Positions 49,839 to 63,208 of a stretch of DNA of 64,000 nt are shown in pieces. Within the stretch, counting starts at the first letter, position 1. Each line of letters begins with the position of its first letter. The notes under the pieces are model-generated. The model saw only the letters and a list, made by a program, of their open reading frames with translations, made no database searches and was not told the DNA's origin. The stretch lies in assembly GCF_009937975.1 (NCBI RefSeq), contig NZ_AP018441.1, positions 1,612,001 to 1,676,000 on the forward strand. Direction: 5' to 3'. The stretch is from Undibacterium sp. YM2. GTDB taxonomy: Bacteria > Pseudomonadota > Gammaproteobacteria > Burkholderiales > Burkholderiaceae_D. The position numbers were made by a program, and so were the translations under genes.

Positions 49839-52595
49839 TTACATCTTCGCGTGCAAAGTCAGGAAGATTTGACGGCCATTTTTGTACAGGGATGCTGGCA
49901 GATCTGCTGCGCCTGGTGTTTTCCAGACAGAGCTGACCAATGGATTGTTGAGGTCCTTGCCATCCAGAGAGATGGAGAAGCTGTCATTGATCTGATAAGC
50001 CAGTGTTGCAGACAAAGTACCGATATCATTCTGGTAAGCAGCGCTGTTACGGCTGGTACCATTCAGGAAGCCGGAACGATAGCTGTATGTCAGACGCGCG
50101 CTGAACTTGCCATCTTCATAGAATGCACCGATGTTGTATGCATTTTTGGAAGTACCGATCAGCGTGCAATCAGGAGCCAGCAAATCACCGCACTTGGAAC
50201 CAGGAGCTGCACCTGTTTCTTTACCCAGTGTGTAAGTGTAGTTGGCGTTGATACCAAAACCTGCTGGCAGTGCCTGGATGTAAGCCAGTTCCAGACCCTT
50301 GACTTCAGCCTGGGTATTGATAGGCGTACTCATTGCATACACAGTGTTTTTCTTCTGGATCTGGTTGTAGAAGGTACCTGTGCTTGAGCCATAAGTAACA
50401 TAGCCATCCAGAGCAGAGTAGAACAGGTCAGCAGACACCATGGACTTAGGTGCGAAATACCATTCTACGCCCAGGTCTACAGTATTGGCACGGATAGGTT
50501 TCAGGTTAGGGTTACCACCGTTACCTGTACCTTGAACGTCACGCAGATCCAGACCAGCCATTTGACCCAGTTCAGGACGGGCCATCGTGCGGGAAACACT
50601 GAAACGGGCAACCATGTCTTTGTTCAGATCCATGCGGAAGTTTGCACTTGGCAGGAAGTCGACATAATTGTTGTTATAGGTACGTGGTTCAAAATTGCCA
50701 GAAGCACCGATCTCATTACGTGTGACTTGCTCGCTGGTGCGGGCAACACGCAAACCGAAATTACCGCTGATGCCTTCGCCTGCAAAATCAGCCATCACAT
50801 ACGCAGATTGTGTTGGTTCTTTAATGGAGAATTCATTTTGCAGTAAGTGGCCAGTATAGTTGGTGTATTGTGCCAACCAGGCATTCACAGAAGCTTGAGA
50901 GAATGTCCAGTAACCCGCACCATTGGCACCCAGATCATTGAAAATGGCTGGGAAGGCTGTCAAGCCAGACATAGGCAGATTGGCTGCATTGCTCAAACCT
51001 GGCAAGGCATTATTGCCGATGGAAGTCAGATCACGCTTGTGTTCGGCAGCACGGAAACCAAAACGCACAGTAGGTATGCTGGCGAGAGAAGTTTTGAACG
51101 TACCGTCGATTTGTGCGTAGTCTTCCTTGTCATTGGCGGTTACGTGTGAGCCGTAAGTGTATGGTGCTCCAGGTGTGCCAGGTGCGCCATTGTTAAAGCC
51201 ACCGATAGAGAACTTGTCAGCACCAGGTGTGACATAAATCACAGGCTTGTCAGAACCCTGAACTGTGTAGCTACCACCTGTCCATGGCATCCAGATACCC
51301 ATCGCACCACTGATAGTGTTGCCCAGGCCTTTGGTTGTACCGATTTTACCGGCAAGTGTCAGTTGATCATTGACGCGGAAAGAGCCGTCGATGTTAAAGA
51401 ACTGAGACTGGCTTTCGGCTACAGGACGGGAAAAAATTTCCTGAACAGAGCTGGACATGCCGCTGCAAGGTACGCAACCGGCAGGATTGCCAACGGATAA
51501 TTGGGAAATAACGCCCTGGCTCAAAGTGCCACTGACAGCGCTGGTTGGGAAACCAGTTGTTGCCCAGGATGGTCCGACGAAACGGCCCAGGGATTGCATG
51601 AAGTTGTGATTGACGTTAGGTGCATCGAGATGGGACTGGAATGCAGTAATATCAATGTTCACATCTTTGGATGGTTTGAACTGGAAGTCAATCAAACCAC
51701 CTTCGCGGGTACGTTGCTGTTCAAACCAGGCAGTACCACCCAGATAGTTGGTGACTGCGCCAGAAGCTGGCGATGTTGCTGTGTTTGCTGTACCAGCACC
51801 TTTGATGGCGCTATCGATAGGGCTGCCAACATCAACTTTATCCCACCAGATTTGATTCTCTTGGCCAGCGCGGCTCAGAGTACGTTTTTGGTGGAACGCT
51901 TGCACCAGAATACCCATGGTAGATGCATCATTTTTCCAGGCGATCAGACCGCTCAACTGAGGATCAGATTTGCCGGAGTTGGCAGAGTTGACCAGACCAA
52001 TACTTGCCTGTGCATTGAATTGCTTTTTGAAATCCAATGGCTTGCGTGTTTCGATATCGACGACACCTTCAGCACCGCCATCAAGCAGGTTGGCTTGAGA
52101 ACCTTTATGTACTGTTACGCGGCCTATCAGTTCGGATGGGAACAAAGAGAAGCTGACGCTGCGGCCACCGCCAACGATATTGTCGGCAAACCAGTCGCCG
52201 CTCGATACTGAGTGACCATTGAGTGTCGTCAGTGTCAGGCCAAATGGTGTGCCGCGCAAGGCAACGCGATCGTTCTCACCAAAGCTGCCTTCGCCGCCAC
52301 CGGCTGCAGCAACGCTGACGCCAGGAACGCGTTGCAGAGAGTCAGCCACGTTTTTATCAGGCATCTTGCCGATGTCTTCGGCAGTGATCACTTCAACGAA
52401 GTTATCAGCGTTACGCTTTTGATTCAAAGATTGTTGCAGGGATGCGCGAATACCAGTTACGACCACTTCTTGAGGCGCCGCGGGCTTTGCTGCCTCTTGT
52501 GCTTGCGCCTGCATGGCAACGCTCATGATCAGTACCGCAACAGCGGACGCCACGGGCGTTAAATTGTTCCTCATTGGACTCATTTTATTTTGCAT
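49839..52595 (-). CDS. TonB-dependent receptor, Caulobacter/Xanthomonas type
   Basis: A 918-residue outer-membrane receptor. After a signal peptide (VAVLIMSVAMQAQAQ) comes a TonB box-like EVVVTG, the plug (NADNFVEVITAEDIGKMPDKNVADSLQRVPGVS; VALRGTPFGLTLTTLNGHSVSS; VTVHKGSQANLLDGGAEGVVDIETRKPL) and a large beta-barrel ending ... TLHAKM. The plug is of the TIGR01782 kind found in receptors for oligosaccharides. Here it is inferred to import GlcNAc or chito-oligosaccharides, because the nag genes share its promoter motif and it lies next to tonB-exbBD. It has a strong AAGGAG ribosome-binding site. The barrel ends in Met rather than the usual Phe. Confidence 0.93.
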   Translation of the reverse strand: MQNKMSPMRNNLTPVASAVAVLIMSVAMQAQAQEAAKPAAPQEVVVTGIRASLQQSLNQKRNADNFVEVITAEDIGKMPDKNVADSLQRVPGVSVAAAGGGEGSFGENDRVALRGTPFGLTLTTLNGHSVSSGDWFADNIVGGGRSVSFSLFPSELIGRVTVHKGSQANLLDGGAEGVVDIETRKPLDFKKQFNAQASIGLVNSANSGKSDPQLSGLIAWKNDASTMGILVQAFHQKRTLSRAGQENQIWWDKVDVGSPIDSAIKGAGTANTATSPASGAVTNYLGGTAWFEQQRTREGGLIDFQFKPSKDVNIDITAFQSHLDAPNVNHNFMQSLGRFVGPSWATTGFPTSAVSGTLSQGVISQLSVGNPAGCVPCSGMSSSVQEIFSRPVAESQSQFFNIDGSFRVNDQLTLAGKIGTTKGLGNTISGAMGIWMPWTGGSYTVQGSDKPVIYVTPGADKFSIGGFNNGAPGTPGAPYTYGSHVTANDKEDYAQIDGTFKTSLASIPTVRFGFRAAEHKRDLTSIGNNALPGLSNAANLPMSGLTAFPAIFNDLGANGAGYWTFSQASVNAWLAQYTNYTGHLLQNEFSIKEPTQSAYVMADFAGEGISGNFGLRVARTSEQVTRNEIGASGNFEPRTYNNNYVDFLPSANFRMDLNKDMVARFSVSRTMARPELGQMAGLDLRDVQGTGNGGNPNLKPIRANTVDLGVEWYFAPKSMVSADLFYSALDGYVTYGSSTGTFYNQIQKKNTVYAMSTPINTQAEVKGLELAYIQALPAGFGINANYTYTLGKETGAAPGSKCGDLLAPDCTLIGTSKNAYNIGAFYEDGKFSARLTYSYRSGFLNGTSRNSAAYQNDIGTLSATLAYQINDSFSISLDGKDLNNPLVSSVWKTPGAADLPASLYKNGRQIFLTLHAKM

Positions 52596-52772
52596 TTATT
52601 TCTCCTTCGGTTAAGACCTGTGAAAAGCTTTAGATCCGTGACAAAAAATTGCTTCCTCCCCCATACCCTACACACTTGATGTTTTGCCAGTGAGTATTTT
52701 CGGTACAACCCGCTGCAGTAAAAGTCATTCAGAGTTAGCTACCACTCGAAACAACAACACCGGATGTGAAGC

Positions 52773-52822
52773 ACTTTAGTGGTGACTAAACAGGTTGTCA
52801 ATCGGTATCTAAGTGGTATCTA
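52773..52822 (-). promoter_or_regulatory. receptor promoter with GntR-type candidate operator
   Basis: Leftward promoter: TTGACA (52801-52796), 17 bp, TAAAGT (52778-52773), starting a leader of about 170 nt. Directly upstream of the -35 box (52802-52822) is TAGATACCACTTAGATACCGA read on the minus strand as two GGTAT-type half sites in direct orientation. The same motif occurs before tonB and the kinase gene. Confidence 0.85.
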
Positions 52823-53241
52823 TGCGATGTTTAAATGCTTGTTTCTTTGATATCTGTATTCAATCTATCTATTTGTTTTTATTGAATAAATTATTCTTTT
52901 CAAATTCGGAAGATGAGAAGTGGACTGATGTTTTATTCCCACATGTGGTCTTTAATTGTTCCTTTTTTAGTCAATAAAGTGGATTTGAAGTGGCTTTGAA
53001 CTTGGTTTTTTAAATTTATTTACTTATGTCTTGAGTGAGGTATTGATGGCTGCATTCTGCGCACAAAAAACATGTTTTAAATTTCCCTGGAAGCGCTGAC
53101 AGATATAGGTGTTGCCCCGATCATGTCTGCTTGATGGCTTTATTTGCTGTTTGATGAGCTAAGACCAGTTGCAAAAATGTGTCATTGTTTTGACGTGAAT
53201 TTTTGCTTGAGCAAGGCTCATAATACCTTCTGATTTGAGCC
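52823..53241. other. AT-rich spacer between receptor and tonB
   Basis: About 420 bp with no convincing gene. It is markedly AT-rich (for example 52850-53040) and carries the small palindrome CCACATGTGG (52939-52948). The AT richness between two divergent promoters could make it a nucleoid-protein binding or upstream-activating region. Confidence 0.5.
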
Positions 53242-53259
53242 TTTCAGGATATCCTGAAA
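53242..53259. promoter_or_regulatory. 18-bp perfect palindrome upstream of tonB
   Basis: TTTCAGGATATCCTGAAA is a perfect palindrome without a spacer, 14 bp upstream of the shared operator motif of the tonB promoter. It is a candidate site for a second regulator, such as a global sugar or iron regulator. Confidence 0.55.
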
Positions 53260-53272
53260 ATGGTAAATTTAA

Positions 53273-53318
53273 TTCCACATAGATACCTCTTGACAACCAG
53301 TTGTGAGGACACTACAGT
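53273..53318 (+). promoter_or_regulatory. tonB operon promoter with GntR-type candidate operator
   Basis: TTCCACATAGATACCTC (53273-53289) then TTGACA (53290-53295), 17 bp, TACAGT (53313-53318). It matches the receptor and kinase promoters over the operator and -35 box. The start codon of tonB is 268 bp further on, so the leader is long; it contains an isolated AGTGGTAT (53387-53394) like the operator half site. Confidence 0.82.
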
Positions 53319-53586
53319 GAGCCAGATTCTAAAGACTGGCGCTTACTTAAGACGTTTTCAAGGCTGTTCAGGGCAAGTTGTACGGGAGTGGTATTTTTGT
53401 ATTTTCCTGCAAGGATAGAGTTCAGGGCATGCTTGCATCTGCAAAATTGCAGGTACATGAATGCACGCATCACTAGTCCAAGCACGGTGATGCGATACAA
53501 GCTGCTCCCGGTTCTGAATCTGCCTTTGCTGCAGTGTTTGGAAGCCGGTTGGTGAAAATGTCTTCACAATAATAGAGGGAGCAGTA

Positions 53587-54258
53587 ATGGATTTTTCAAA
53601 TCGCCAGCAAGAGCCGGGGAAGAAGTTTATAGGCTTAGGGCTGGTTATCGCATTTCACGTACTGGTGGTATATGCGCTGGTATCTGGATTGGCGCGCAAA
53701 GCGATGGAAGTGGTGATCAAGCCAGCAGAAGTCAAGCTGGTAGAAGAAGTAAAACCGCCGCCACCGCCGCCAGACACCCCGCCACCGCCACCACCAAAAT
53801 TGTTGGCCCCGCCGCCGCCGTTCATTCCGCCACCGGAAGTCCAGGTCCAGCAGCCGGTCCAGCAACAGCCAGCGATATCAGCGGTATCGAATGTCAAGCC
53901 AGAAAACCCGACATTCACCAAGACCCAGGCCCCACCTGCACCAGTTGCAGAGACGAAGGCCACAGGTCCCGTCACGATACCAGGCGTGATCGACTTCAAC
54001 GTTGGTGGATGCAAACCGGAATATCCGCGTGCCTCCCTGCGCAATGAAGAAACCGGCACCGTCCTGTTGTCCGTATTGATTGGTGCAGATGGTTCTGTGG
54101 CCGACGTCAAGATCGACAAATCCAGCGGTTTCCGCGGTCTCGACAATGCGGTGAAATCCCAGTTGATGTCAGGTTCCTGCAAAAACAAACCAGGTACCGT
54201 CGATGGCAAACCACAACAGACCTGGGCCAAGGTTCAGTATGTATGGAAGTTGGAGTAG
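53587..54258 (+). CDS. tonB: energy transducer TonB
   Basis: A 223-residue inner-membrane protein that passes proton-motive force to outer-membrane receptors. One transmembrane helix (FIGLGLVIAFHVLVVYALVSG, about residues 14-34), a Pro-rich periplasmic section (about 57-85), a linker, and a TonB C-terminal domain (about 140-223: KPEYPRASLRNEETGTVLLS). Two Cys (142 and 198) in the C-terminal domain could form a disulphide. It is followed by exbB, exbD and a second exbD, a set dedicated to the adjacent receptor. A GAGGGAGC site precedes ATG 53587. Confidence 0.94.
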   Translation: MDFSNRQQEPGKKFIGLGLVIAFHVLVVYALVSGLARKAMEVVIKPAEVKLVEEVKPPPPPPDTPPPPPPKLLAPPPPFIPPPEVQVQQPVQQQPAISAVSNVKPENPTFTKTQAPPAPVAETKATGPVTIPGVIDFNVGGCKPEYPRASLRNEETGTVLLSVLIGADGSVADVKIDKSSGFRGLDNAVKSQLMSGSCKNKPGTVDGKPQQTWAKVQYVWKLE

Positions 54259-54278
54259 ATAAAATCAAGATCAAGATC

Positions 54279-54432
54279 AAGACCTCTCACCACAGAGGCA
54301 CAGAGACACAGAGAAAAGCAAGAGGAAACACCGATGGATAAAACATCCACACTTTGCGAAGTTTTTCTCACCAGGGTTTTCTCAATGCCCCATCTGTGAC
54401 TCAGTGTCTCTGTGGTGAAGATGTTTGGTCTT
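54279..54432. repeat. palindromic repeat A (ACCACAGAG type), tonB-exbB gap
   Basis: A 154-bp unit with imperfect inverted ends: AAGACC...TCACCACAGAGGCACAGAG on the left and its complement ...CTCTGTGGTGAAG...GGTCTT on the right. The AC(A/C)ACAGAGRCAC motif recurs at 55527 and after. It fills nearly all of the gap between the tonB stop and exbB. It is the broad 'CACAGAGGCACAGAGACACAGAG' class of intergenic repeat found in many phyla. Confidence 0.8.
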
Positions 54433-54509
54433 CAAGTTTCATATTCAAGTAATACATAAAAACAGCAGTAAGCAATACCAACCTTATTTTGTTAAAAGGA
54501 AGCACCTCA

Positions 54510-55379
54510 ATGAAAACCCGTTTCTCCGCATTCCTGGCTGCAACACTCCTGGCCTTGACAGCCGCCGTTGCCGTCGCCCCTGTTTCTGCACAGGAATCCG
54601 CCTCAGCAGCTGCCTCCGCTGCCGCTTCAGCCCCTGCTGCAGAAGCAGCCCCGGCACCAGCCGCTCCAGCAGACGCTGGCGCCCCGGCAGCACCAGCAGC
54701 CGCCAAAGAAATGGTAGAAAACCCATATGGTCTCGACGCCCTCTGGAAAACTGGTGACTTCGTTGCCAAAGGCACCCTCATCATCATGGTCATCATGTCC
54801 ATGGGCAGCTGGTACATCCTCATCACCAAAATCATTGACCAGGTCAAATTGTCCGGTCAAGCCACAGATGCCCGCTCCAAATTCTGGAAAGCAGCTTCTG
54901 TACAAGCCGGTGCCGCTTCTCTGAAAGAAGGCAGCCCATTCCGCTTCATCGCTGACTCTGGCATCAAAGCCACAGAACACCATGAAGGCGCCTTGCTCGA
55001 ACAAATCGATCTGAACACCTGGGTATCCATGTCCATCCAGCGCGCTGTTGATAAAGTCCAAAGCCGTTTGCAAGATGGCCTGGCCTTCCTGGCGACTGTG
55101 GGCTCCACAGCACCATTCGTTGGTCTGTTCGGTACCGTATGGGGTATTTACCATGCGCTGACAGCGATTGGTATGTCCGGTCAGGCATCGATCGACAAAG
55201 TAGCGGGCCCTGTTGGTGAAGCGCTCATCATGACCGCGATTGGTCTGGCTGTCGCTGTTCCTGCTGTACTGGGTTACAACTTCCTGGTCCGCCGCAACAA
55301 GAGCGCCATGGAAGAAGTCCGTGCCTTCTCCGCTGACCTGCACTCCGTAGTCCTGTCCGGCACCATGGGCAAGAAGTGA
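54510..55379 (+). CDS. exbB: ExbB/MotA/TolQ-family proton channel protein with exported N-terminal extension
   Basis: A 289-residue subunit of the ExbBD motor. Unlike short ExbB proteins it has a cleavable signal peptide (ATLLALTAAVAVAPVSA) and an Ala/Pro-rich periplasmic linker (about residues 28-66). The core holds a first helix (TLIIMVIMSMGSWYILITKI) and the conserved pair LATVGSTAPFVGLFGTVWGIYHAL and VGEALIMTAIGLAVAVPAVL. ATG 54510 is preceded by AAGGAAGC; the start at 54489 adds a leader without family support. Second gene of the tonB operon. Confidence 0.93.
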   Translation: MKTRFSAFLAATLLALTAAVAVAPVSAQESASAAASAAASAPAAEAAPAPAAPADAGAPAAPAAAKEMVENPYGLDALWKTGDFVAKGTLIIMVIMSMGSWYILITKIIDQVKLSGQATDARSKFWKAASVQAGAASLKEGSPFRFIADSGIKATEHHEGALLEQIDLNTWVSMSIQRAVDKVQSRLQDGLAFLATVGSTAPFVGLFGTVWGIYHALTAIGMSGQASIDKVAGPVGEALIMTAIGLAVAVPAVLGYNFLVRRNKSAMEEVRAFSADLHSVVLSGTMGKK

Positions 55380-55498
55380 AATACTGATGAAGCTACTGCG
55401 CGACGCGATTTTGAACCTGCGATGCTCGTCGTACCGAAGTACGACTGCGCTTCTTAACTAAAATTAGCGCCGCTCGCTACGCTTCCTCAGCATTTCAC
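55376..55498. repeat. palindromic repeat B, includes the exbB stop codon
   Basis: Imperfect terminal inverted repeats GTGAAATACTGATGAAGC (55376-55393) and GCTTCCTCAGCATTTCAC (55481-55498), 16 of 18 complementary, with a central perfect hairpin GTCGTAC-CGAA-GTACGAC (55428-55445). The left arm contains the TGA stop of exbB (55377-55379), so the element overlaps the coding end. Its family is unlike repeats A and C. Confidence 0.75.
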
Positions 55499-55526
55499 AC
55501 GGCTACTTGTAAGATTGAAAAAAACC

Positions 55527-55735
55527 AAGACCCTTAACCACAGAGGGGTAGAGACACAGAGGAAAAACATAGGGAAAATCTGGGATGACTTGCAAGTAAC
55601 TGCAAACAAGTTTCCCCTGCCTTTCTCTGTGTCTCCGTGGTGTGGCAGGGAATTCGAGGGGCATGCCACTCGCCTGCGGAACGAAGACTTCTTGCAAGAA
55701 GTCTTTCTTTTCTCTGTGTTGAGAGGTCTTAAGGG
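55527..55735. repeat. palindromic repeat C (ACCACAGAG type), exbB-exbD gap
   Basis: A second copy of the type in repeat A: AAGACCCTTAACCACAGAGG...GAGACACAGAGG (from 55527) opposed by CCTTTCTCTGTGTCTCCGTGG (55619-55639), with a further partial arm CTTTTCTCTGTGTTGAGAGGTCTTAAGGGTT ending at 55737. It carries an inner perfect 22-bp palindrome. Confidence 0.78.
55684..55705. repeat. 22-bp perfect palindrome within repeat C
   Basis: The arms AAGACTTCTTG and CAAGAAGTCTT are exact complements with no spacer. It lies about 60 bp upstream of the first exbD start. It could form a small hairpin in the mRNA or be a dimer-binding site. Confidence 0.7.
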
Positions 55736-55765
55736 TTAAAGCGTAACATCGAAAGAGAACACATT

Positions 55766-56200
55766 ATGGCAATGGCAATTGGCAATGATGGAGATGGTGA
55801 AGACGAAGTCAACAGCACCATCAACACCACCCCGCTGGTCGACGTCATGCTGGTATTGCTGATCATCTTCCTGATCACCACTCCGGTGATTACAGATACG
55901 GTCAAGCTGAAATTACCGGCAGAAACCAACGTGATTTACAAAACCAAACCGGAAAACATCACCCTGTCGGTGAACAAGGATGGTGATCTGTACTGGAACG
56001 GCAGCATGAAGCCGCTGGCAGGCACGGATGCCCTGTTTGAAAAGCTCAAGGTAGAAGCAGTCAAGATCCCGCAACCGGAGTTGCATATCAGTGGAGATCA
56101 GAATACCCGCTATGAGTTTATTGGCAAAAGTATCCTGACGGCACAGCGTGCCGGTATCGCCAAGGTCGGCTTCGTGATTGAACCGCCTCCACGGAACTAG
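55766..56200 (+). CDS. exbD: ExbD/TolR-family protein (first copy)
   Basis: A 144-residue single-pass subunit of the ExbBD motor. The N-terminal helix holds the essential Asp (TTPLVDVMLVLLIIFLITTP, Asp26), followed by a periplasmic domain (KLKLPAETNVIYKTKPENIT; YEFIGKSILTAQRAGIAKVG). The start has a purine-rich AAAGAGAA upstream. Another exbD follows, so the complex may contain both. Confidence 0.94.
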   Translation: MAMAIGNDGDGEDEVNSTINTTPLVDVMLVLLIIFLITTPVITDTVKLKLPAETNVIYKTKPENITLSVNKDGDLYWNGSMKPLAGTDALFEKLKVEAVKIPQPELHISGDQNTRYEFIGKSILTAQRAGIAKVGFVIEPPPRN

Positions 56201-56229
56201 TTTTTTGAATGACTAAACAGGGCTGGCGA

Positions 56230-56309
56230 AAAATTGTCCTGACAAGGCGTAGCGACGAAGACAGTGCGAATAGCACGGCGAGGAGCTGCAACGCAGTCAG
56301 GGCGATTTT
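56230..56309. repeat. palindromic repeat D, between the two exbD genes
   Basis: An 80-bp unit with imperfect terminal inverted repeats AAAATTGTCCTGAC (56230-56243) and GTCAGGGCGATTTT (56296-56309). The interior (AGCGACGAAGACAGTGCGAA ... GAGGAGCTGCAACGCAGTC) is of a type widely repeated in Proteobacteria, to my recollection. It fills the spacer between the exbD copies and is distinct from repeats A, B and C. Confidence 0.72.
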
Positions 56310-56336
56310 ATCGTCGGTCCCAGCAAAGGAAGCATT

Positions 56337-56771
56337 ATGGGTATGCAAATTGGTTCCGGTGGAGCGTCAGCCGATCCGGAAGTGATGATAGAAATGAACA
56401 TGACGCCGCTGATTGACGTCATGCTGGTATTGATCATCATGTTGATTATTACCATTCCTATTCAGAATCACGCAGTGAATCTGAATATGCCGACAGGTAA
56501 CCCACCGCCACCAACCACACCGCCTGTGGTAGTGAATATCGACGTCGATTTTGATGGTACGGTGTCCTGGAATGGTACGGCAGTCGATCATGCACAGCTG
56601 GAAGCGAAGTTGGCTGAATCGGCAGCAATGCCTGCAGCAAACCAGCCAGAGATCCACCTGCGTCCGGTTGCTGTTGTACCTTACAAATCCGTGGCGTCCG
56701 TCATGGCGGCGGCACAGCGTCTTGGTGTGACCAAGATCGGTATGGTCGGGAATGAGCAGTTCCTGAAGTAA
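56337..56771 (+). CDS. exbD: ExbD/TolR-family protein (second copy)
   Basis: A second 144-residue ExbD, with essential Asp27 in NMTPLIDVMLVLIIMLIITI and a different periplasmic part rich in Pro (MPTGNPPPPTTPPVVVNIDV; YKSVASVMAAAQRLGVTKIG). It diverges clearly from the first copy, so it is not a fresh duplication. Tandem ExbD proteins occur in Xanthomonas (ExbD1/ExbD2), where the second is needed only for some functions. AAAGGAAG precedes its ATG. Confidence 0.94.
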   Translation: MGMQIGSGGASADPEVMIEMNMTPLIDVMLVLIIMLIITIPIQNHAVNLNMPTGNPPPPTTPPVVVNIDVDFDGTVSWNGTAVDHAQLEAKLAESAAMPAANQPEIHLRPVAVVPYKSVASVMAAAQRLGVTKIGMVGNEQFLK

Positions 56772-56782
56772 AAATGGTCTCA

Positions 56783-56815
56783 GCAAGCGCTAATACAAGT
56801 TGCTATGGCGCTTGC
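56783..56815 (+). terminator. hairpin after the second exbD
   Basis: GCAAGCGC (56783-56790) pairs perfectly with GCGCTTGC (56808-56815) around 17 nt. No T tract follows, so it is a weak or Rho-linked terminator, or simply an RNA stabiliser. Confidence 0.4.
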
Positions 56816-56901
56816 AGTGGAGAGGTCGGTTAGCAAGCCTGTTTCATTGTGCTGGACGGCAATAGTGTTGCGGGAATAAAGTAGGCAAAATTAAATTTAA
56901 C

Positions 56902-56950
56902 GATACCACTTAAATACCTATTGACATCCACTAGTAAAAAAACTTACAGT
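56902..56950 (+). promoter_or_regulatory. nag operon promoter with GntR-type candidate operator
   Basis: GATACCACTTAAATACCTA (56902-56920) followed by a perfect TTGACA (56921-56926) and TTACAG (17-bp spacer) or TACAGT (18-bp spacer) at about 56945. It is the third instance of the shared motif and directs the kinase-nagR-nagA-deaminase operon. The leader is about 115 nt. Confidence 0.85.
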
Positions 56951-57069: not shown

Positions 57070-58014
57070 ATGAACAAACAGGCAGAACATCTTTCTACAG
57101 TTGATTCATCAGGTACTGCGGGGCAGTCCTCAGCAAAACCTGCTTGTTCTTATTTTATTGGTGCTGATGGTGGTGGTACTGGCACACGAGTGGTGTTGGC
57201 TGATGCCAGTGGCAAAGAACTTGGCCGTGGCAGTGCCGGTCCTTCTGGCCTCGCACATGGCCGGGATAAAGCCTGGCAATCCATCCTGCTGGCGACCCAG
57301 CAAGCGTTTGCAGCGGCGAATCTGGATGTGCCGGCACTGACCGATATCGCAGTCGGTTGCGGCCTGGCTGGTGTTCATAATATTCATTGGGCCAGGGAGT
57401 TTGTTGCGCTCAATCCTGGCTTTGGCGCGGTCTGTGCAGAAACCGATGGCTATACCACTTTGCTGGGCGCACTTGATGGCAAGCCTGGTTCTATCATCGC
57501 CTTGGGAACTGGCAGCGTTGGTGAAGTTTTGTTACCTGATGGTCAGCGTCGTGAAGTCGGTGGTTGGGGCTTCCCGGTCAGTGATGAGGCCAGTGGTGCC
57601 TGGCTGGGTATGCGCGCCGTCAATCATTTGCAGCGTGTGCTTGATGGCCGCGCTGCCAGCAATCCATTTGCCAGCGCTGTGCTGACACATTGCGGTGGCG
57701 ACAAAGATGCCGTCTTCGCCTGGCTTGCCCTGGCCAATCAAACCCGCTATGCCGAACTGGCACCCCTGGTGATACGTTTTGCGCCCGAGGTAGAGGTCGC
57801 CCGTGCGATCATGCTCGAAGCAGGTAAAGAAGTCGCCATCATGGCACAGTCCCTGGACCCGGAATCTGCATTGCCGATTGCTCTATGTGGTGGTCTGGCA
57901 GCGCCGGTAGCCAGCTATTTGCCAGCAGATTTAAAAGCAAGAATACAAATGCCCAAGGCTGATTCAGCAGTTGGGGCTTTGATCCTGATACAACAGCATT
58001 TGCAAGCCCAATAA
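57070..58014 (+). CDS. nagK: BadF/BadG-family N-acetylglucosamine kinase
   Basis: A 314-residue ATPase-fold sugar kinase that makes GlcNAc-6-phosphate from imported GlcNAc. Phosphate and adenosine motifs are present: FIGADGGGTGTRVVLADASG, SIIALGTGSVGEVLL, GGWGFPVSDEASGAWLGMRA and ALCGGLAAPV. The BadF/BcrA-type fold is the GlcNAc-kinase form (NagK) used by many Betaproteobacteria and by eukaryotes; it is not the ROK type. About 26 unstructured residues precede the core, with no alternate start in frame. It begins the nag operon under the shared operator. Confidence 0.9.
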   Translation: MNKQAEHLSTVDSSGTAGQSSAKPACSYFIGADGGGTGTRVVLADASGKELGRGSAGPSGLAHGRDKAWQSILLATQQAFAAANLDVPALTDIAVGCGLAGVHNIHWAREFVALNPGFGAVCAETDGYTTLLGALDGKPGSIIALGTGSVGEVLLPDGQRREVGGWGFPVSDEASGAWLGMRAVNHLQRVLDGRAASNPFASAVLTHCGGDKDAVFAWLALANQTRYAELAPLVIRFAPEVEVARAIMLEAGKEVAIMAQSLDPESALPIALCGGLAAPVASYLPADLKARIQMPKADSAVGALILIQQHLQAQ

Positions 58015-58036: not shown

Positions 58037-58771
58037 ATGCTGGCACAATTGATAGACTTTAAACCTGACGCAGAAAGTTCTACCCCCTTGTATCTGCAAC
58101 TGGCGAACAAGCTTGCGAACGGCATACATAGCGGATTGTGGCAGCCGGACGAAGCCTTGCCTTCAGAGCGCATGCTGTCTGATACTCTGGAAATCTCACG
58201 TGTGACAGCACGCAAGGCCATAGACATGTTGTGCGAGCGTGGCATGCTGACCCGCAAACATGGCTCTGGCACTTACATCACGCCCAAGATAGAACAACCA
58301 CTGTCACGCCTGACCAACTTCAGTGAAGAATTGCGTAACCGAGGTTTTGCACCAGGCTCTCGCTGGTTGTCGCGTGAAACCGGCATTGCTTCGCCAGAAG
58401 AAATTTTGTCACTGGGGCTGTCACCCAATACCGTGGTATCGCGTTTGAAACGTCTGCGTACCGCCGACAATGTCGTCATGGCGATAGAAAGCTCGACCAT
58501 CCCGGCAATCTACATGCCGAATCCCAAACTGGTCAATGACAGCCTGTACGGTTATCTGGAATCACATAATCTGTCGCCGACACGCGCCTTGCAGCATATA
58601 CGCGCCGTCAATGCAACTGCCGAACAGGCGCGCCTGGCAGATATCAAGCAGGGCGCTGCCATGTTGTTCATCACCCGTGTTGCCTATCTCCCTAACGGTG
58701 CAGCGATAGAACTGTCGCATTCTTATTGCCGTAGTGATTACTATGACTTTGTGGCGGAGTTGTTCAGATGA
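58037..58771 (+). CDS. nagR: GntR/HutC-family transcriptional regulator of GlcNAc genes
   Basis: A 244-residue regulator. An N-terminal winged helix-turn-helix (PLYLQLANKLANGIHSGLWQ; SDTLEISRVTARKAIDMLCE) is joined to a UTRA effector-binding domain (RLTNFSEELRNRGFAPGSRW; YGYLESHNLSPTRALQHIRA). NagR/YvoA/DasR-type members answer to GlcN-6-P or GlcNAc-6-P. It lies inside the nag operon (23 bp after the kinase) and is probably autoregulated through the operator at 56902. It overlaps nagA by 4 bp. Confidence 0.93.
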   Translation: MLAQLIDFKPDAESSTPLYLQLANKLANGIHSGLWQPDEALPSERMLSDTLEISRVTARKAIDMLCERGMLTRKHGSGTYITPKIEQPLSRLTNFSEELRNRGFAPGSRWLSRETGIASPEEILSLGLSPNTVVSRLKRLRTADNVVMAIESSTIPAIYMPNPKLVNDSLYGYLESHNLSPTRALQHIRAVNATAEQARLADIKQGAAMLFITRVAYLPNGAAIELSHSYCRSDYYDFVAELFR

Positions 58772-59904
58772 GTTTGCCACAACAAGTGCAGGGACAAATA
58801 CTGACGCCCCAAGGCTGGGTGCGCGGCTCTCTGGTGTTCGATGAAAGAGTGCAGACCATCACTGTCGATGCTGCCGATGCTGATGTAGAGAATGCTGCTG
58901 ATGCAGAATCCCTGCATTACATCTTGCCCGGCTTTGTCGATTTGCATGTACACGGTGCCGGTGGCAAAGACACCATGGAAGCTGGCGACGCGGTAGAAAT
59001 CATCGCCCGCAAGCATGCTAAACATGGCACCACCAGCATGCTGGCCACCACCATGACAGCGCCGCTGTCTGATCTGGAAATGGCCTTGAAGGCGATCAGG
59101 CCATTGGTGGATAAACGCAGCAGCGGTTCTGCCCGCATATTGGGTGTGCATCTGGAAGGGCCGTATATCAATCCCGGCAAGCTCGGTGCGCAGCCAGACT
59201 TTGCTCATACAGGTTCGCTGGAACAGGTACGTCACCTCGATGCGATAGCACCGATACGCCTGATCACCGTGGCACCAGAAATGGATGGGCATTTGCAACT
59301 GGTGCGCGAACTAACAGCCATAGGCATGCAGGTGCAGATAGGTCATACCCTCGGTACTTATGAAGAGGGTAAGGCAGCGCTGGAAAATGGTGCCACCGGT
59401 TTTACCCACTTGTACAACGCCATGTCGCGCCTTGATCACCGTGCGCCTGGTATGGTGGGTGCAGCGCTGGCACATGCGCAGTTTTCTGAAATTATTCCCG
59501 ACTTGTTGCACGTTCACCCTGGCGCGATCAAAGCCGCCATGCGTGCGATTCCGCATCTGTATTGCGTTACTGATTCCACTGCCGCTTCCGGTATGCCGGA
59601 TGGGCAATACATGCTGGGCCGCCAGGTCGTGCATAAATGTCTGGGTGGCGTGCGTCTTGAAGACGGCACGCTGGCAGGCAGCACACTGACCATGGATCAA
59701 GCCTTGCGCAATCTGGTCAGCATAGGCCTGGACCTGGAAGATGCATCGAAGCGTGTTTCTACCTACGCAGCCGATTATCTGGGACTGAATGAGCGTGGCC
59801 GCCTGCAGGCTGGCAGTTACGCAGACCTGGTTGTGCTGGACCGCCAGCTCAACCTCATCGCTGTTTATGTAGAAGGAGAAAAGATTGACCTCGCAGATGC
59901 TTAA
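58768..59904 (+). CDS. nagA: N-acetylglucosamine-6-phosphate deacetylase
   Basis: A 378-residue amidohydrolase that turns GlcNAc-6-P into GlcN-6-P and acetate. Metal and substrate residues are visible: GFVDLHVHGAGGKDTMEAG (H60, H62), HLEGPYINPGKLGA (E130), QIGHTLGTYEEG (H193), FTHLYNAMS (H214) and the catalytic Asp in VTDSTAASGMPDG (D269). The ATGA overlap with nagR and the overlap of its end with the deaminase gene show tight coupling. Confidence 0.95.
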   Translation: MSLPQQVQGQILTPQGWVRGSLVFDERVQTITVDAADADVENAADAESLHYILPGFVDLHVHGAGGKDTMEAGDAVEIIARKHAKHGTTSMLATTMTAPLSDLEMALKAIRPLVDKRSSGSARILGVHLEGPYINPGKLGAQPDFAHTGSLEQVRHLDAIAPIRLITVAPEMDGHLQLVRELTAIGMQVQIGHTLGTYEEGKAALENGATGFTHLYNAMSRLDHRAPGMVGAALAHAQFSEIIPDLLHVHPGAIKAAMRAIPHLYCVTDSTAASGMPDGQYMLGRQVVHKCLGGVRLEDGTLAGSTLTMDQALRNLVSIGLDLEDASKRVSTYAADYLGLNERGRLQAGSYADLVVLDRQLNLIAVYVEGEKIDLADA

Positions 59905-60907
59905 GGAAGCCAGCTCTTCCGCTGATTTTGTAGCCGAACAACTCAAACACGAACGTGAGCGCTATGCCGAACTTGGTGCATACTTGCGCGCCAAACCACC
60001 CACATCCGTTGTTACCGTTGCCCGTGGCAGCTCAGACCATGCCGCTAATTATGCAGCCTATCTGATCATGGCCAGGGTAGGGCGTATCGTCGCCTCTCTG
60101 CCCATGTCTCTGGTGACTTTGAACAAGGCTCCACTGGCAGCCAAAGATGCGTTGGCAATTGCGATTTCACAATCTGGCCAAAGCCCTGACGTGGTCGAGC
60201 CTATTCGCTATTTCCGCGAAGGTGGCGCGACTACTGTTGCCCTCGTCAACGACGCAGCATCGCCGCTGGCACAAAGCGCAGAATGGACCATGCCATTGTA
60301 CGCAGGCCCGGAACTGAGCGTGGCTGCGACCAAGAGCTTTATCACTTCGCTGGTGGCAGGCGCACGCCTGGCAGGTCACTGGCAAAACGATGCAGAATTT
60401 TTGGCGGCGATAGAGCAATTGCCCGAATCCCTGCATGCTGCCACAAAACTTGATTGGTCACCTGCAATAGAAGTCTTGCAACCTGCATCACGCATCATGG
60501 TGGTGGGCCGTGGCATCAGCTTCCCGGTTGCGCTGGAGTCTGCACTTAAGTTCAAAGAGACTTCCGTCATCCAGGCAGAAGCCTTCAGCGGTGCAGAGAT
60601 CAAGCATGGCCCCATGGCACTGATACATGATGGTTATCCATTATTGATTTTCGCAACCCGTGGCCCTGCACAGGCTGGCCTGATTGCCCTGGCAGAAGAA
60701 ATGCGTGGCCGTGGCGCGAATGTCTTGCTGGCAGCACCAGAAGATGTCAAGGAACGTAACCTGACTTTGCCAGTTGCAGCAACGCCTGATCTCGATCCTG
60801 TGGTCGCAATACAAGCCTTCTACATGATGGCAGCAAACCTGTCGATTGCCCGTGGCCTCGACCCGGACAAGCCAAGGCACTTGAGCAAAGTCACCAAGAC
60901 AAATTAA
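59885..60907 (+). CDS. SIS-domain glucosamine-6-phosphate deaminase (NagB-II type)
   Basis: A 340-residue protein made of two SIS domains without the glutaminase half of GlmS: SVVTVARGSSDHAANYAAYL, ALAIAISQSGQSPDVVEPIRY, ATKSFITSLVAGARLAGHW, then ESALKFKETSVIQAEAFSGAEIKHGPMALI. This fits NagB-II, which isomerises and deaminates GlcN-6-P to fructose-6-P and ammonia, in place of classical NagB. Start choice: TTG 59885 has a strong AAGGAG (59873-59878) six bases before it, while ATG 59897 does not, so TTG is taken. The 20-bp overlap with nagA suggests coupling. Confidence 0.9.
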   Translation: MTSQMLKEASSSADFVAEQLKHERERYAELGAYLRAKPPTSVVTVARGSSDHAANYAAYLIMARVGRIVASLPMSLVTLNKAPLAAKDALAIAISQSGQSPDVVEPIRYFREGGATTVALVNDAASPLAQSAEWTMPLYAGPELSVAATKSFITSLVAGARLAGHWQNDAEFLAAIEQLPESLHAATKLDWSPAIEVLQPASRIMVVGRGISFPVALESALKFKETSVIQAEAFSGAEIKHGPMALIHDGYPLLIFATRGPAQAGLIALAEEMRGRGANVLLAAPEDVKERNLTLPVAATPDLDPVVAIQAFYMMAANLSIARGLDPDKPRHLSKVTKTN

Positions 60908-61028
60908 CATCGCTAAAGCAGCAGGCTATTTTTTAAAAACTTAAAAAATATATACTGCCCCCAGTATTTTTATTAATAGCAAGATTGGTATGACTAAAAT
61001 GCGAGATTGCTTAAGAATATTGGGGAGT

Positions 61029-62318
61029 ATGTGTAAAAGAGTGATTTTGGTAACGAAGTTACGCGTGTTCTTGAGTGTACTGCTATTGAGTTTTGGCTTG
61101 CACGACAATGCCTTTGCCGTCCAGAAAATTGAATTCTGGACCATGAGCCTGAAGCCAAAATTCATTCCCTATTTCCAGGAACTCGTCAAAAATTACGAAA
61201 CCCAACATCCCGGCATCAAGCTCGAATGGGTAGATTTTCCCTGGGACATTCTGCAATTAAAACTGATCACTGCGATTGCTGCCGGTACACCACCAGCACT
61301 CGTAAATCTGAGCGTGCCATGGGCAGAAGAAATGGCGCGTGATGGTTTGCTCGAACCTGTCGATGCCTTGCTGGCAGCGCCAGGTGCCACCAATGATTAC
61401 ACCGATGCCGCATTGGCCGACCTGCGTTTCAATGGCAAAGTCTACGGCTTCCCGCATTACAGCAACGTCAATGTCATTGCCTATAACCGCAAGATATTGG
61501 CAGCGGCAGGCATCTTCCAGGCACCACGCAGCATGGATGAATTGCTGACCCAGGCAGTCATGATCTCCCTCAAAACCGGCAAGCCCGGCTACGCACCAGC
61601 ACTCGGCAAAATTGATGGCTTTTTCATGCAGCAGGGGCTGGATTTGATGCGCGATGGCAAGGCAGTCTTCAATTCGCCAGCCCATGTGACCCTGGTCAAA
61701 AAATTGGCTGCCACTTACAAGGCGGGTGGTTTTTTAAAAGATAAATTATTTGCAGAAGACAATTTTCCTGCCGTGGTAGATGCCTATCTCGGTGGTCGTC
61801 TTGGCGTCATGGTCAGCGCACCCACGGCCATCAAACGCATACAGACTGATGCACCAGAAATTTATGCGCAAACCGGTATCTTTCCTGTGCCGCCGGGCCC
61901 GACGGGCATCAATGACGGTGGCTGGATGTTCCATTTCGCTATACCCAAAGGTGTGAAGAAAAAAGATATACCTGAAGTTGCCGCCTTTGCCCGTTACCTG
62001 ACCAGCGATACCAATCAACTGGCTTTTGCCAGCATGGCCGGTGTCATGCCGACGACCAAACAGGCATTGGCAAATTCCTACTTCAAGAAGATATTACCCA
62101 ATGCTGGCGCATCAGAGCAGGCGTTGGCAGTGGCGGCAAATTCCATGAATTCTGCCCGCAGTCTGTACGTCAGCGGCATTGATGATTATGATGAATTGCG
62201 CCGCTTTCTGGTCAAGGCTGTCGAAGCTGGCGTTACGGGCCGCCGTGATATACAAGAAGCGCTGGATGAGGCAGTCGCTATCTGGAACCGCAAGCTGCAA
62301 GGGGTGAAGCTGCCATGA
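61029..62318 (+). CDS. sugar ABC transporter substrate-binding protein
   Basis: A 429-residue periplasmic binding protein of the MalE-like (SBP_bac_1) family: after a signal peptide (FLSVLLLSFGLHDNAFA), QKIEFWTMSLKPKFIPYFQE, FHPGIKLEW-like core HPGIKLEWVDFPWDILQLKL, AAGTPPALVNLSVPWAEEMA and GGWMFHFAIPKG. It binds a sugar, here probably GlcNAc, chitobiose or a related sugar by context. ATG 61029 gives a normal signal peptide; ATG 60990 would add 13 residues and is the alternative. It follows the deaminase gene after an AT-rich 120-bp gap and overlaps the first permease gene by 4 bp. Confidence 0.88.
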   Translation: MCKRVILVTKLRVFLSVLLLSFGLHDNAFAVQKIEFWTMSLKPKFIPYFQELVKNYETQHPGIKLEWVDFPWDILQLKLITAIAAGTPPALVNLSVPWAEEMARDGLLEPVDALLAAPGATNDYTDAALADLRFNGKVYGFPHYSNVNVIAYNRKILAAAGIFQAPRSMDELLTQAVMISLKTGKPGYAPALGKIDGFFMQQGLDLMRDGKAVFNSPAHVTLVKKLAATYKAGGFLKDKLFAEDNFPAVVDAYLGGRLGVMVSAPTAIKRIQTDAPEIYAQTGIFPVPPGPTGINDGGWMFHFAIPKGVKKKDIPEVAAFARYLTSDTNQLAFASMAGVMPTTKQALANSYFKKILPNAGASEQALAVAANSMNSARSLYVSGIDDYDELRRFLVKAVEAGVTGRRDIQEALDEAVAIWNRKLQGVKLP

Positions 62319-63208
62319 GTATGCCTGGCTCTTTATCAGCAAGCAACAAGCGGCGTAATCTGCTCGCCTATGCCTTCCTGGCACCAGCTTTGTTATTGCT
62401 ACTGATGTTTTCTTTCTGGCCTGTCATGTATGGCTCTTATCTGAGCTTTACAGACTTCAGCCTGATACGCGAAGTGCACTGGGTAGGTTTCGCCAATTAT
62501 CGCGCCTTGTTTGCAAATGACATGTTTTTGACCGGGCTTAAAAACTCCTTGCTATTTTTGCTGGTCGTACCTTTCACGCAATTAGGGGCGATATCACTGG
62601 CAGTGCTGGTGAATAATCAATTGCCCGGCATACGCTGGTTTCGTGCTGCCTATTATGTGCCTGTAGTGACGACGGTTTCTGTCGTCGGCATCATGTGGGG
62701 CTTCATGTTCCACGACCAGGGCACACTCAATTATGTACTGCTGCAATTGCATATCATTGCTGCGCCACTGGGCTGGTTGTCGGACGATGCACTCGCTCTG
62801 TTTGCCGTGATGTTCGTCTCTTTCTGGCGCGGCCTGGGCTGGTATATGGTCATGTACCTCGCGGCCCTGCAATCGCTGCCATCCGAAATGCAGGAAGCCG
62901 CCATACTGGACGGGGCCAATCGCTGGCAACGCTTCTGGCGCATCACCGTGCCCATGCTGAAGCCGACAATACTGGTCTGCAGCATCATGTCTGTACTGGC
63001 CGCTTTGAAGGCTTATCAGGAAGTTGATGTGTTGACCCAGGGCGGGCCCATGAACGCCACCTTCACGGCCCTGTATTATGCCTATGACCAGGGCTTGAAA
63101 CATCTGAAGTTGCCGCGTGGTCTGGCTGCGAGTTTTGTTGTATCCCTGTGCTGCATGGCGATTGCTTTCGTCTGCCTGCGCTGGCTTAAACCAGGGCACA
63201 GGGAATGA
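62315..63208 (+). CDS. sugar ABC transporter permease, MalF/UgpA type
   Basis: A 297-residue six-helix permease (LLAYAFLAPALLLLLMFSFW; NSLLFLLVVPFTQLGAISLA; YVPVVTTVSVVGIMWGFMFH). The EAA loop is LQSLPSEMQEAAILDGANRWQRFWRITVPMLKP. It shares start/stop overlaps with the binding protein gene and with the second permease gene, so the three are one translational unit. Confidence 0.94.
   Translation: MSMPGSLSASNKRRNLLAYAFLAPALLLLLMFSFWPVMYGSYLSFTDFSLIREVHWVGFANYRALFANDMFLTGLKNSLLFLLVVPFTQLGAISLAVLVNNQLPGIRWFRAAYYVPVVTTVSVVGIMWGFMFHDQGTLNYVLLQLHIIAAPLGWLSDDALALFAVMFVSFWRGLGWYMVMYLAALQSLPSEMQEAAILDGANRWQRFWRITVPMLKPTILVCSIMSVLAALKAYQEVDVLTQGGPMNATFTALYYAYDQGLKHLKLPRGLAASFVVSLCCMAIAFVCLRWLKPGHRE

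Follow-up and report, generated by a model that had tools for sequence, protein, structure and literature searches.

The amino-sugar locus and its three promoters

The 64,000-nucleotide stretch of Undibacterium sp. YM2 analyzed here (the window; contig NZ_AP018441.1, positions 1,612,001 to 1,676,000) encodes a predicted N-acetylglucosamine (GlcNAc) utilization system in which three promoters share one sequence element. The catabolic operon on the forward strand begins with nagK, encoding a GlcNAc kinase of the BadF/BadG family (57070..58014; NagK_SO3507 7.9e-51, under its curated cut-off), followed by gntR (58037..58771), nagA for the GlcNAc-6-phosphate (GlcNAc-6-P) deacetylase (58768..59904; TIGR00221 274.7 bits, cut-off 225.65) and a gene for a SIS-domain glucosamine-6-phosphate (GlcN-6-P) deaminase resembling NagB-II (59885..60907; SIS 6e-32; NF046059 7.2e-82, under its curated cut-off). 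Upstream on the same strand lie tonB (53587..54258; PF03544), exbB (54510-55379, read from 54507; ExbB/TolQ models, under their cut-offs) and two exbD genes (55766-56200 and 56337-56771; PF02472 ExbD 1.1e-23 and 2.1e-23). A TonB-dependent receptor of the TonB-Xanth-Caul type is encoded on the reverse strand (49839..52595; TIGR01782 568.6 bits, cut-off 310).

The product of gntR, the proposed NagQ-type operator binder, is a GntR/HutC (UTRA) regulator for which PF00392 and PF07702 both scored above cut-off (GntR 3.1e-17, UTRA 6.6e-36). It is 98% identical to the GntR proteins of Undibacterium pigrum and U. umbellatum, and the solved structure nearest to it by sequence is that of B. subtilis NagR/YvoA (1.3e-41).

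A first-pass annotation of this DNA had proposed that the receptor, tonB and kinase promoters share a CCAC(A/T)TA(A/G)ATACC-type motif two or three bases before a perfect TTGACA. The motif was confirmed: the window contains three perfect matches to CCACWTARATACC, at 52804-52816 (reverse strand), 53275-53287 and 56906-56918 (both forward strand), compared with a mean of 0.00 in dinucleotide shuffles. Each of the three sites, however, has a 2-bp gap to TTGACA, and none a gap of three. When up to three mismatches were allowed, 36 matches were found in the window against 35 expected, which is chance level; this set was not used, and only the exact 13-mer sites therefore stand out in the window. 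The pattern TTGACA N15-19 TANAGT occurs in the window at the same three places only. The spacer is 17 bp for the receptor and tonB, as annotated, but 18 bp for the kinase, while the perfect TTGACA and the TANAGT-type -10 box hold for all three.

The putative receptor operator ATACCACTTAGATACC (52804..52819, reverse strand) is an 11-bp direct repeat that is kept in relatives, and the core promoter TTGACA-17-TAAAGT (52773..52801, reverse strand) lies 2 bp from it. The tonB operator ATTCCACATAGATACC (53272..53287, forward strand) has one deviation in its first half-site and precedes TTGACA-17-TACAGT (53290..53318). The nagK operator ATACCACTTAAATACC (56903..56918, forward strand) is identical to the family consensus and is followed by TTGACA-18-TACAGT (56921..56950).

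Across the whole 6.66 Mb genome the element is nearly confined to these promoters. The 13-mer with TTGACA within 0-4 bp was found at the three window sites only (reversed control, 0), and the bare 13-mer has four copies against one for the reversed control. The annotation had named a similar frequency elsewhere in the genome as speaking against a regulon, and for the motif combined with a -35 box no such frequency was seen; the bare 13-mer recurs once. This fourth copy (G000:C1:610484-610496, outside the window) contains a single ATACC unit with TTGACA 6 bp later, and the region downstream of it showed no recognizable gene. Its presence very slightly lowered our confidence that one amino-sugar repressor uses the three sites. 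A looser genome scan with up to three mismatches gave eight matches versus four in controls, and the 16-bp repeat with at most one mismatch gave 13, three of them the window sites, versus two.

The direct repeat and its distribution

In full, the element consists of two direct copies at an 11-bp period (ATACCASTTAA-ATACCNNTTGA-CA), the second of which extends into the -35 box. It reads ATACCACTTAA ATACCTATTGA CA at the kinase promoter, ATACCACTTAG ATACCGATTGA CA at the receptor promoter and ATTCCACATAG ATACCTCTTGA CA at the tonB promoter. The direct order of the half-sites was therefore correctly described before, but the 13-mer is not the full motif since it cuts off the first half-site.

In an alignment of 66 sites, chosen with a consensus that itself includes TTGACA, the CC of both half-sites was invariant save for one base, and conservation covered both units and the -35 box. 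As a fairer test the 16-bp operator alone was scanned on 80 named loci. It was present with at most three mismatches in 78 of them (88 sites), compared with two sites for the reversed consensus. In the two remaining loci just 574 and 182 bases precede the regulator, and the operon start is probably missing from the available sequence. A TTGAC was located at exactly 2 bp from 47/47 perfect, 28/29 one-mismatch and 5/5 two-mismatch sites and from none of the seven three-mismatch sites, which are probably chance matches. At all listed sites having TTGAC the family operator reaches into the beginning of the -35 box and has the same orientation. The spacer between the -35 and -10 boxes was 17 bp in 53 of the 80, 18 bp in 25 and ambiguous in two.

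Half-site order was also analyzed in 68 regulator-upstream regions (76 before removal of near-duplicates), counting pairs of AKACC rather than regions. Direct pairs at a period of 11 bp numbered 56, other spacings gave at most eight, and mononucleotide shuffles averaged 0.18. Pairs in the inverted order of dre-type sites, which were sought in the same 68 regions, numbered at most two at any spacing.

The element co-occurs with GntR. A GntR homolog (E <= 1e-40) was present in 53 of 145 sampled genomes of the family; these counts cover related species and not independent events. The exact 23-mer pattern ATACCASNTNRATACCNNTTGAC was detected in 40/145 genomes (reversed control, 0/145), and all 40 fall among the 53 encoding GntR. 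Twelve of the other 13 contain a version with one to four mismatches of 24: five of the element versions examined (G028, G061, G117, G130 and G018) match 20-22 positions and seven (G003, G011, G045, G052, G072, G108 and G125) match 22-23. In the thirteenth genome (G091) the kinase gene is truncated by the end of the contig. An exact or near-exact operator is thus present in 52/52 GntR-encoding genomes whose sequence allows the check. The exact operator was found in none of the 92 family genomes without GntR; near-exact versions were searched for among these in the operon region of G026 only. This was also the only one of five GntR-less genomes queried for nagB-II in which that gene was present, and the best match in its operon region was 14 of 24. 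These distributions give good support to the earlier proposal that one regulator, the GntR encoded at 58037, governs a GlcNAc regulon.

The same proposal gains from gntR genes that stand alone. In two loci in which gntR had no kinase, nagA or nagB match within the fetched 20 kb, the element is located just upstream of gntR. A further GntR/UTRA gene, beside a receptor gene, also carries the element upstream, and inspection of that 10-kb locus by eye showed no nag open reading frame (ORF). The promoters of such separate gntR genes thus bear the operator themselves. The recognizable targets are amino-sugar genes.

At the level of the order, the exact family pattern was found in 5/300 sampled genomes, all five from the family, which accounts for 10/300 of the sample. 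A genus-wide search with one mismatch, which served just to pick regions for further reading, had 39/39 Undibacterium genomes among the matches listed, with reversed controls matching too.

Mode of control

Very probably, one amino-sugar repressor uses all three sites as its operators, namely the NagQ-type GntR/HutC protein whose gene lies at 58037-58771. The sites are 11-bp direct repeats of a AGTGGTAT-type half-site, which reads ATACC on the strand of the promoter, and one dimer is predicted to occupy both units. As long as amino-sugar phosphate is absent, the repressor would occupy the operator, barring sigma-70 polymerase from the -35 box. GlcNAc-6-P or GlcN-6-P would release it, and release would switch on the receptor, the TonB-ExbBD energizer and the nagK-gntR-nagA-nagB operon together, gntR itself included.

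Several observations weigh against such a repressor. The distance from operator to -35 box is fixed at 2 bp (47/47 perfect operators), which could also suit an activator. Hand mapping of the alignment replaces Tyr228, a sugar contact in NagR, by Cys231 in GntR. One genome (G130) retains the operator at the receptor promoter, with none at that of the kinase. The exact operator also occurs in six genomes that lack a close GntR1 and encode only paralogues of about 45-58% identity. Finally, 8/22 loci scanned in other families or distant members had no half-site pair (L144, L152, L153, L158, L159, L162, L163 and L167).

The first alternative, which appears unlikely, is that GntR binds but activates, touching sigma region 4 from a site beside the -35 box. 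The rigid placement of the operator favors activation, while the spacer between the -35 and -10 boxes varies between 17 and 18 bp. Against it, these promoters are near consensus and should need no activation, and NagR of B. subtilis acts as a repressor (PMC4333415). The arrangements in other families of the order bear on the same question. Orthologues there show 56-67% identity, and their repeats are placed differently from the family operator. Of 26 loci taken from other families or from distant members, 22 were scanned for half-site pairs: an 11-bp pair was present in ten, a 22-bp pair in three and a 12-bp pair inside the kinase gene in one (L150). Three of the eight loci without a pair (L152, L153 and L163) show, upstream of the operon, a looser repeat with an 11-bp period despite the negative scan. 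In family f27 (L154 and L155) GGTATTGACGTGGTATTTAAGTGGTATTAACTT forms three 11-bp units in reversed orientation, with a TTGACG -35 and a TAACTT -10 box within the array; in two further loci (L165 and L166) the array is similar but one unit is degenerate. In family f21, GGTMT units, again reversed, start shortly after a TTGACA, and no -10 box was found there by the pattern used. The three loci with the 22-bp pair belong to family f5 (L160, L161 and L164) and have their two half-sites downstream of promoter-like sequence. Reversed repeats that run from the -35 to the -10 box or begin just past TTGACA suit repression, and the repeat positions in other families suggest a repressor rather than a fixed activator.

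It is less probable still that the element is bound by a different regulator with its gene elsewhere, GntR being a coincidental neighbor or using other sites. The six genomes without a close GntR1 would fit this explanation. However, all six encode a GntR paralogue at E <= 1e-40, and ACC-N8-ACC repeats are located near four of the six paralogue genes looked at (L074, L076, L077 and L078), so that GntR paralogues may share the operator site. The operators at gntR genes apart from nag genes and the lack of exact operators in the 92 family genomes without such a GntR also speak against an unrelated regulator. In five of the six paralogue loci (L073-L076 and L078) the paralogous GntR2 genes show 54-61% identity, and cell-wall-recycling-like ORFs were noted by eye near some of them.

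That the shared sequence is merely an extended strong promoter or a recent duplication without operator function can practically be dismissed: the -35 and -10 boxes are themselves conserved, but the three promoters align poorly by eye beyond the operator and core promoter, the repeat is kept at the kinase and receptor genes, at tonB and gntR and at further genes, and other families show it with another promoter geometry.

Targets beyond the window and known relatives

Outside the window, 82 distinct operators were collected in the fetched family loci. Each was assigned to the closest gene on its strand, up to 900 bp away, that has a homolog in the window. This was the kinase in 45 cases, a TonB receptor in 25, gntR in three, tonB in two and a tryptophan-halogenase-like gene in one; six had none. 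In one genus (g42) the operator of three loci precedes a nagZ-like gene of glycoside hydrolase family 3 (Glyco_hydro_3 8e-96 for L118; L119 and L121 alike by ORF start), and in a fourth locus, L120, it precedes a DUF5009 protein (7.3e-9). Operators without a recognized target were found in L050 and L056. The named targets fit amino-sugar or cell-wall sugar use.

In one locus (L215 4330-4735, genome G085) a tonB-type operator and promoter precede the kinase operator with no intervening ORF of at least 100 aa, and apparent last codons of an exbD gene were seen there by eye. This remnant between the two operators suggests a deletion of tonB-exbBD.

Weak sites elsewhere in the Undibacterium genome were inspected by eye at 15 loci, and none resembled the promoter of a GlcNAc gene, except that of acs. 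Of the weak sites in the genome, only the acs site is intergenic with a fitting gene downstream. The gene (G000:C1:2629436-2631427, forward strand, outside the window) encodes acetyl-CoA synthetase, as indicated by ACAS_N and AMP-binding domains in a relative, and has an 11-bp repeat upstream. It is present in 39/39 Undibacterium genomes. A GGTAT-N6-GGTAT-type repeat was found upstream of acs in 14/30 fetched Undibacterium loci (L297-L326) versus 2.0% of shuffles, a pattern fixed after the first examples had been seen and counted over species some of which are close; 16/30 loci had no repeat. Deacetylation of GlcNAc-6-P yields acetate, and a link to acs, though tentative, is therefore plausible. 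The five regions inspected also have CGTAAGGCTTGAGTAAGTCTCC or a close variant of it as a second block between the repeat and acs.

Downstream of the promoters for the receptor and tonB lie half-sites of the form AGTGGTA(G/T) (52739-52746 and 53387-53394), inverted relative to the operator. They exist where the first-pass annotation placed additional half-sites, and are kept in the nearest relatives examined (receptor, G438 and G460; tonB, G460) and absent in G085. As AGTGGTA follows only 3/134 family operators, with about 1.1 expected, such half-sites are not a general operator feature; they are possible auxiliary sites at the receptor and tonB. CACAGAG-rich intergenic stretches (about 54285-54420 and 55530-55650), which by eye recur in both orientations within the tonB-exbB-exbD run, may represent a repeat or hairpin element. 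Downstream of nagB-II, a sugar-binding protein and an ATP-binding cassette (ABC) permease are encoded on the forward strand (60990..63208; SBP_bac_1 2.1e-35; BPD_transp_1 1.9e-14).

A more tentative extension, which we consider rather doubtful as a whole, is that a symmetric GntR/UTRA dimer reads half-sites head to tail and one turn apart, in an array extendable to at least three units. In the family one unit would be fused with the -35 box, with repressor and sigma factor sharing overlapping bases, and acs would also be controlled, tying acetate recovery to amino-sugar breakdown.

Motifs of the HutC subfamily are mostly palindromes, and the exceptions include NagQ, for which direct repeats of TGGTATT are listed (PMC4494728, citing Yang 2006). 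Direct repeats, which the first-pass annotation considered unusual for a dimeric GntR repressor, are thus exceptional in this subfamily but already listed for one of its members. The opposite strand of the Undibacterium half-site reads TGGTATT (operator GGTATTTAAGTGGTAT and variants), and the system was therefore grouped with the NagQ kind. It has a regulator with GntR and HutC/UTRA domains, direct TGGTATT repeats, gene linkage to nagK, nagA and nagB-II and an operator upstream; NagQ is likewise described as a HutC-subfamily GntR of GlcNAc utilization with direct TGGTATT half-sites (PMC4494728). Membership in the NagQ kind, as matched to this description, is well supported. The 11-bp period, the merging of the second unit with the -35 box, the predicted targeting of tonB-exbBD and the possible acs target set the Undibacterium system apart, relative to passages on NagQ that carry no spacing, promoter position or organism (PMC4494728).

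Two other arrangements in the GntR family are comparable. NanR, of the FadR subfamily, has direct repeats of TGGTATAW (PMC4494728), a nearly identical half-site, but its C-terminal domain is FadR and not HutC/UTRA. For palindromic GntR sites, extra half-sites at a distance of 7-12 nt were reported, the HutC subfamily included (PMC4494728); these flank a palindrome, whereas no palindrome was found at the Undibacterium operators.

B. subtilis NagR/YvoA and DasR, the closest to GntR by sequence among solved structures, share with it the domain layout, a GTGG-type half-site and conserved base-contacting residues. NagR reads GTGG half-sites via Arg38, Arg48 and Gly69 (PMC4333415), which correspond to R45, R55 and G76 in GntR in an alignment counted by hand. 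Hand mapping of the GlcNAc-6-P/GlcN-6-P pocket residues (PMC4333415) indicated that Arg133, Arg135, Glu145, Ser165, Tyr167, Arg211 and Glu222 are kept, while Thr90, Ser88, Ala224 and Tyr228 are changed to S96, N94, S227 and C231, respectively. Contact residues and half-site thus look alike in NagR and GntR, and the relative orientation of the half-sites differs: the dre sites of NagR and DasR are inverted repeats, an order practically absent from the regulator-upstream regions analyzed. For a group of environmental bacteria the comparison yields a tightly defined and testable operator, and it suggests that a single sugar switch governs outer-membrane uptake, the TonB energizer dedicated to it and catabolism. 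A structural question also becomes testable, namely how a two-fold symmetric GntR dimer would bind direct repeats one turn apart, where its relative NagR binds inverted ones with the same contact residues.

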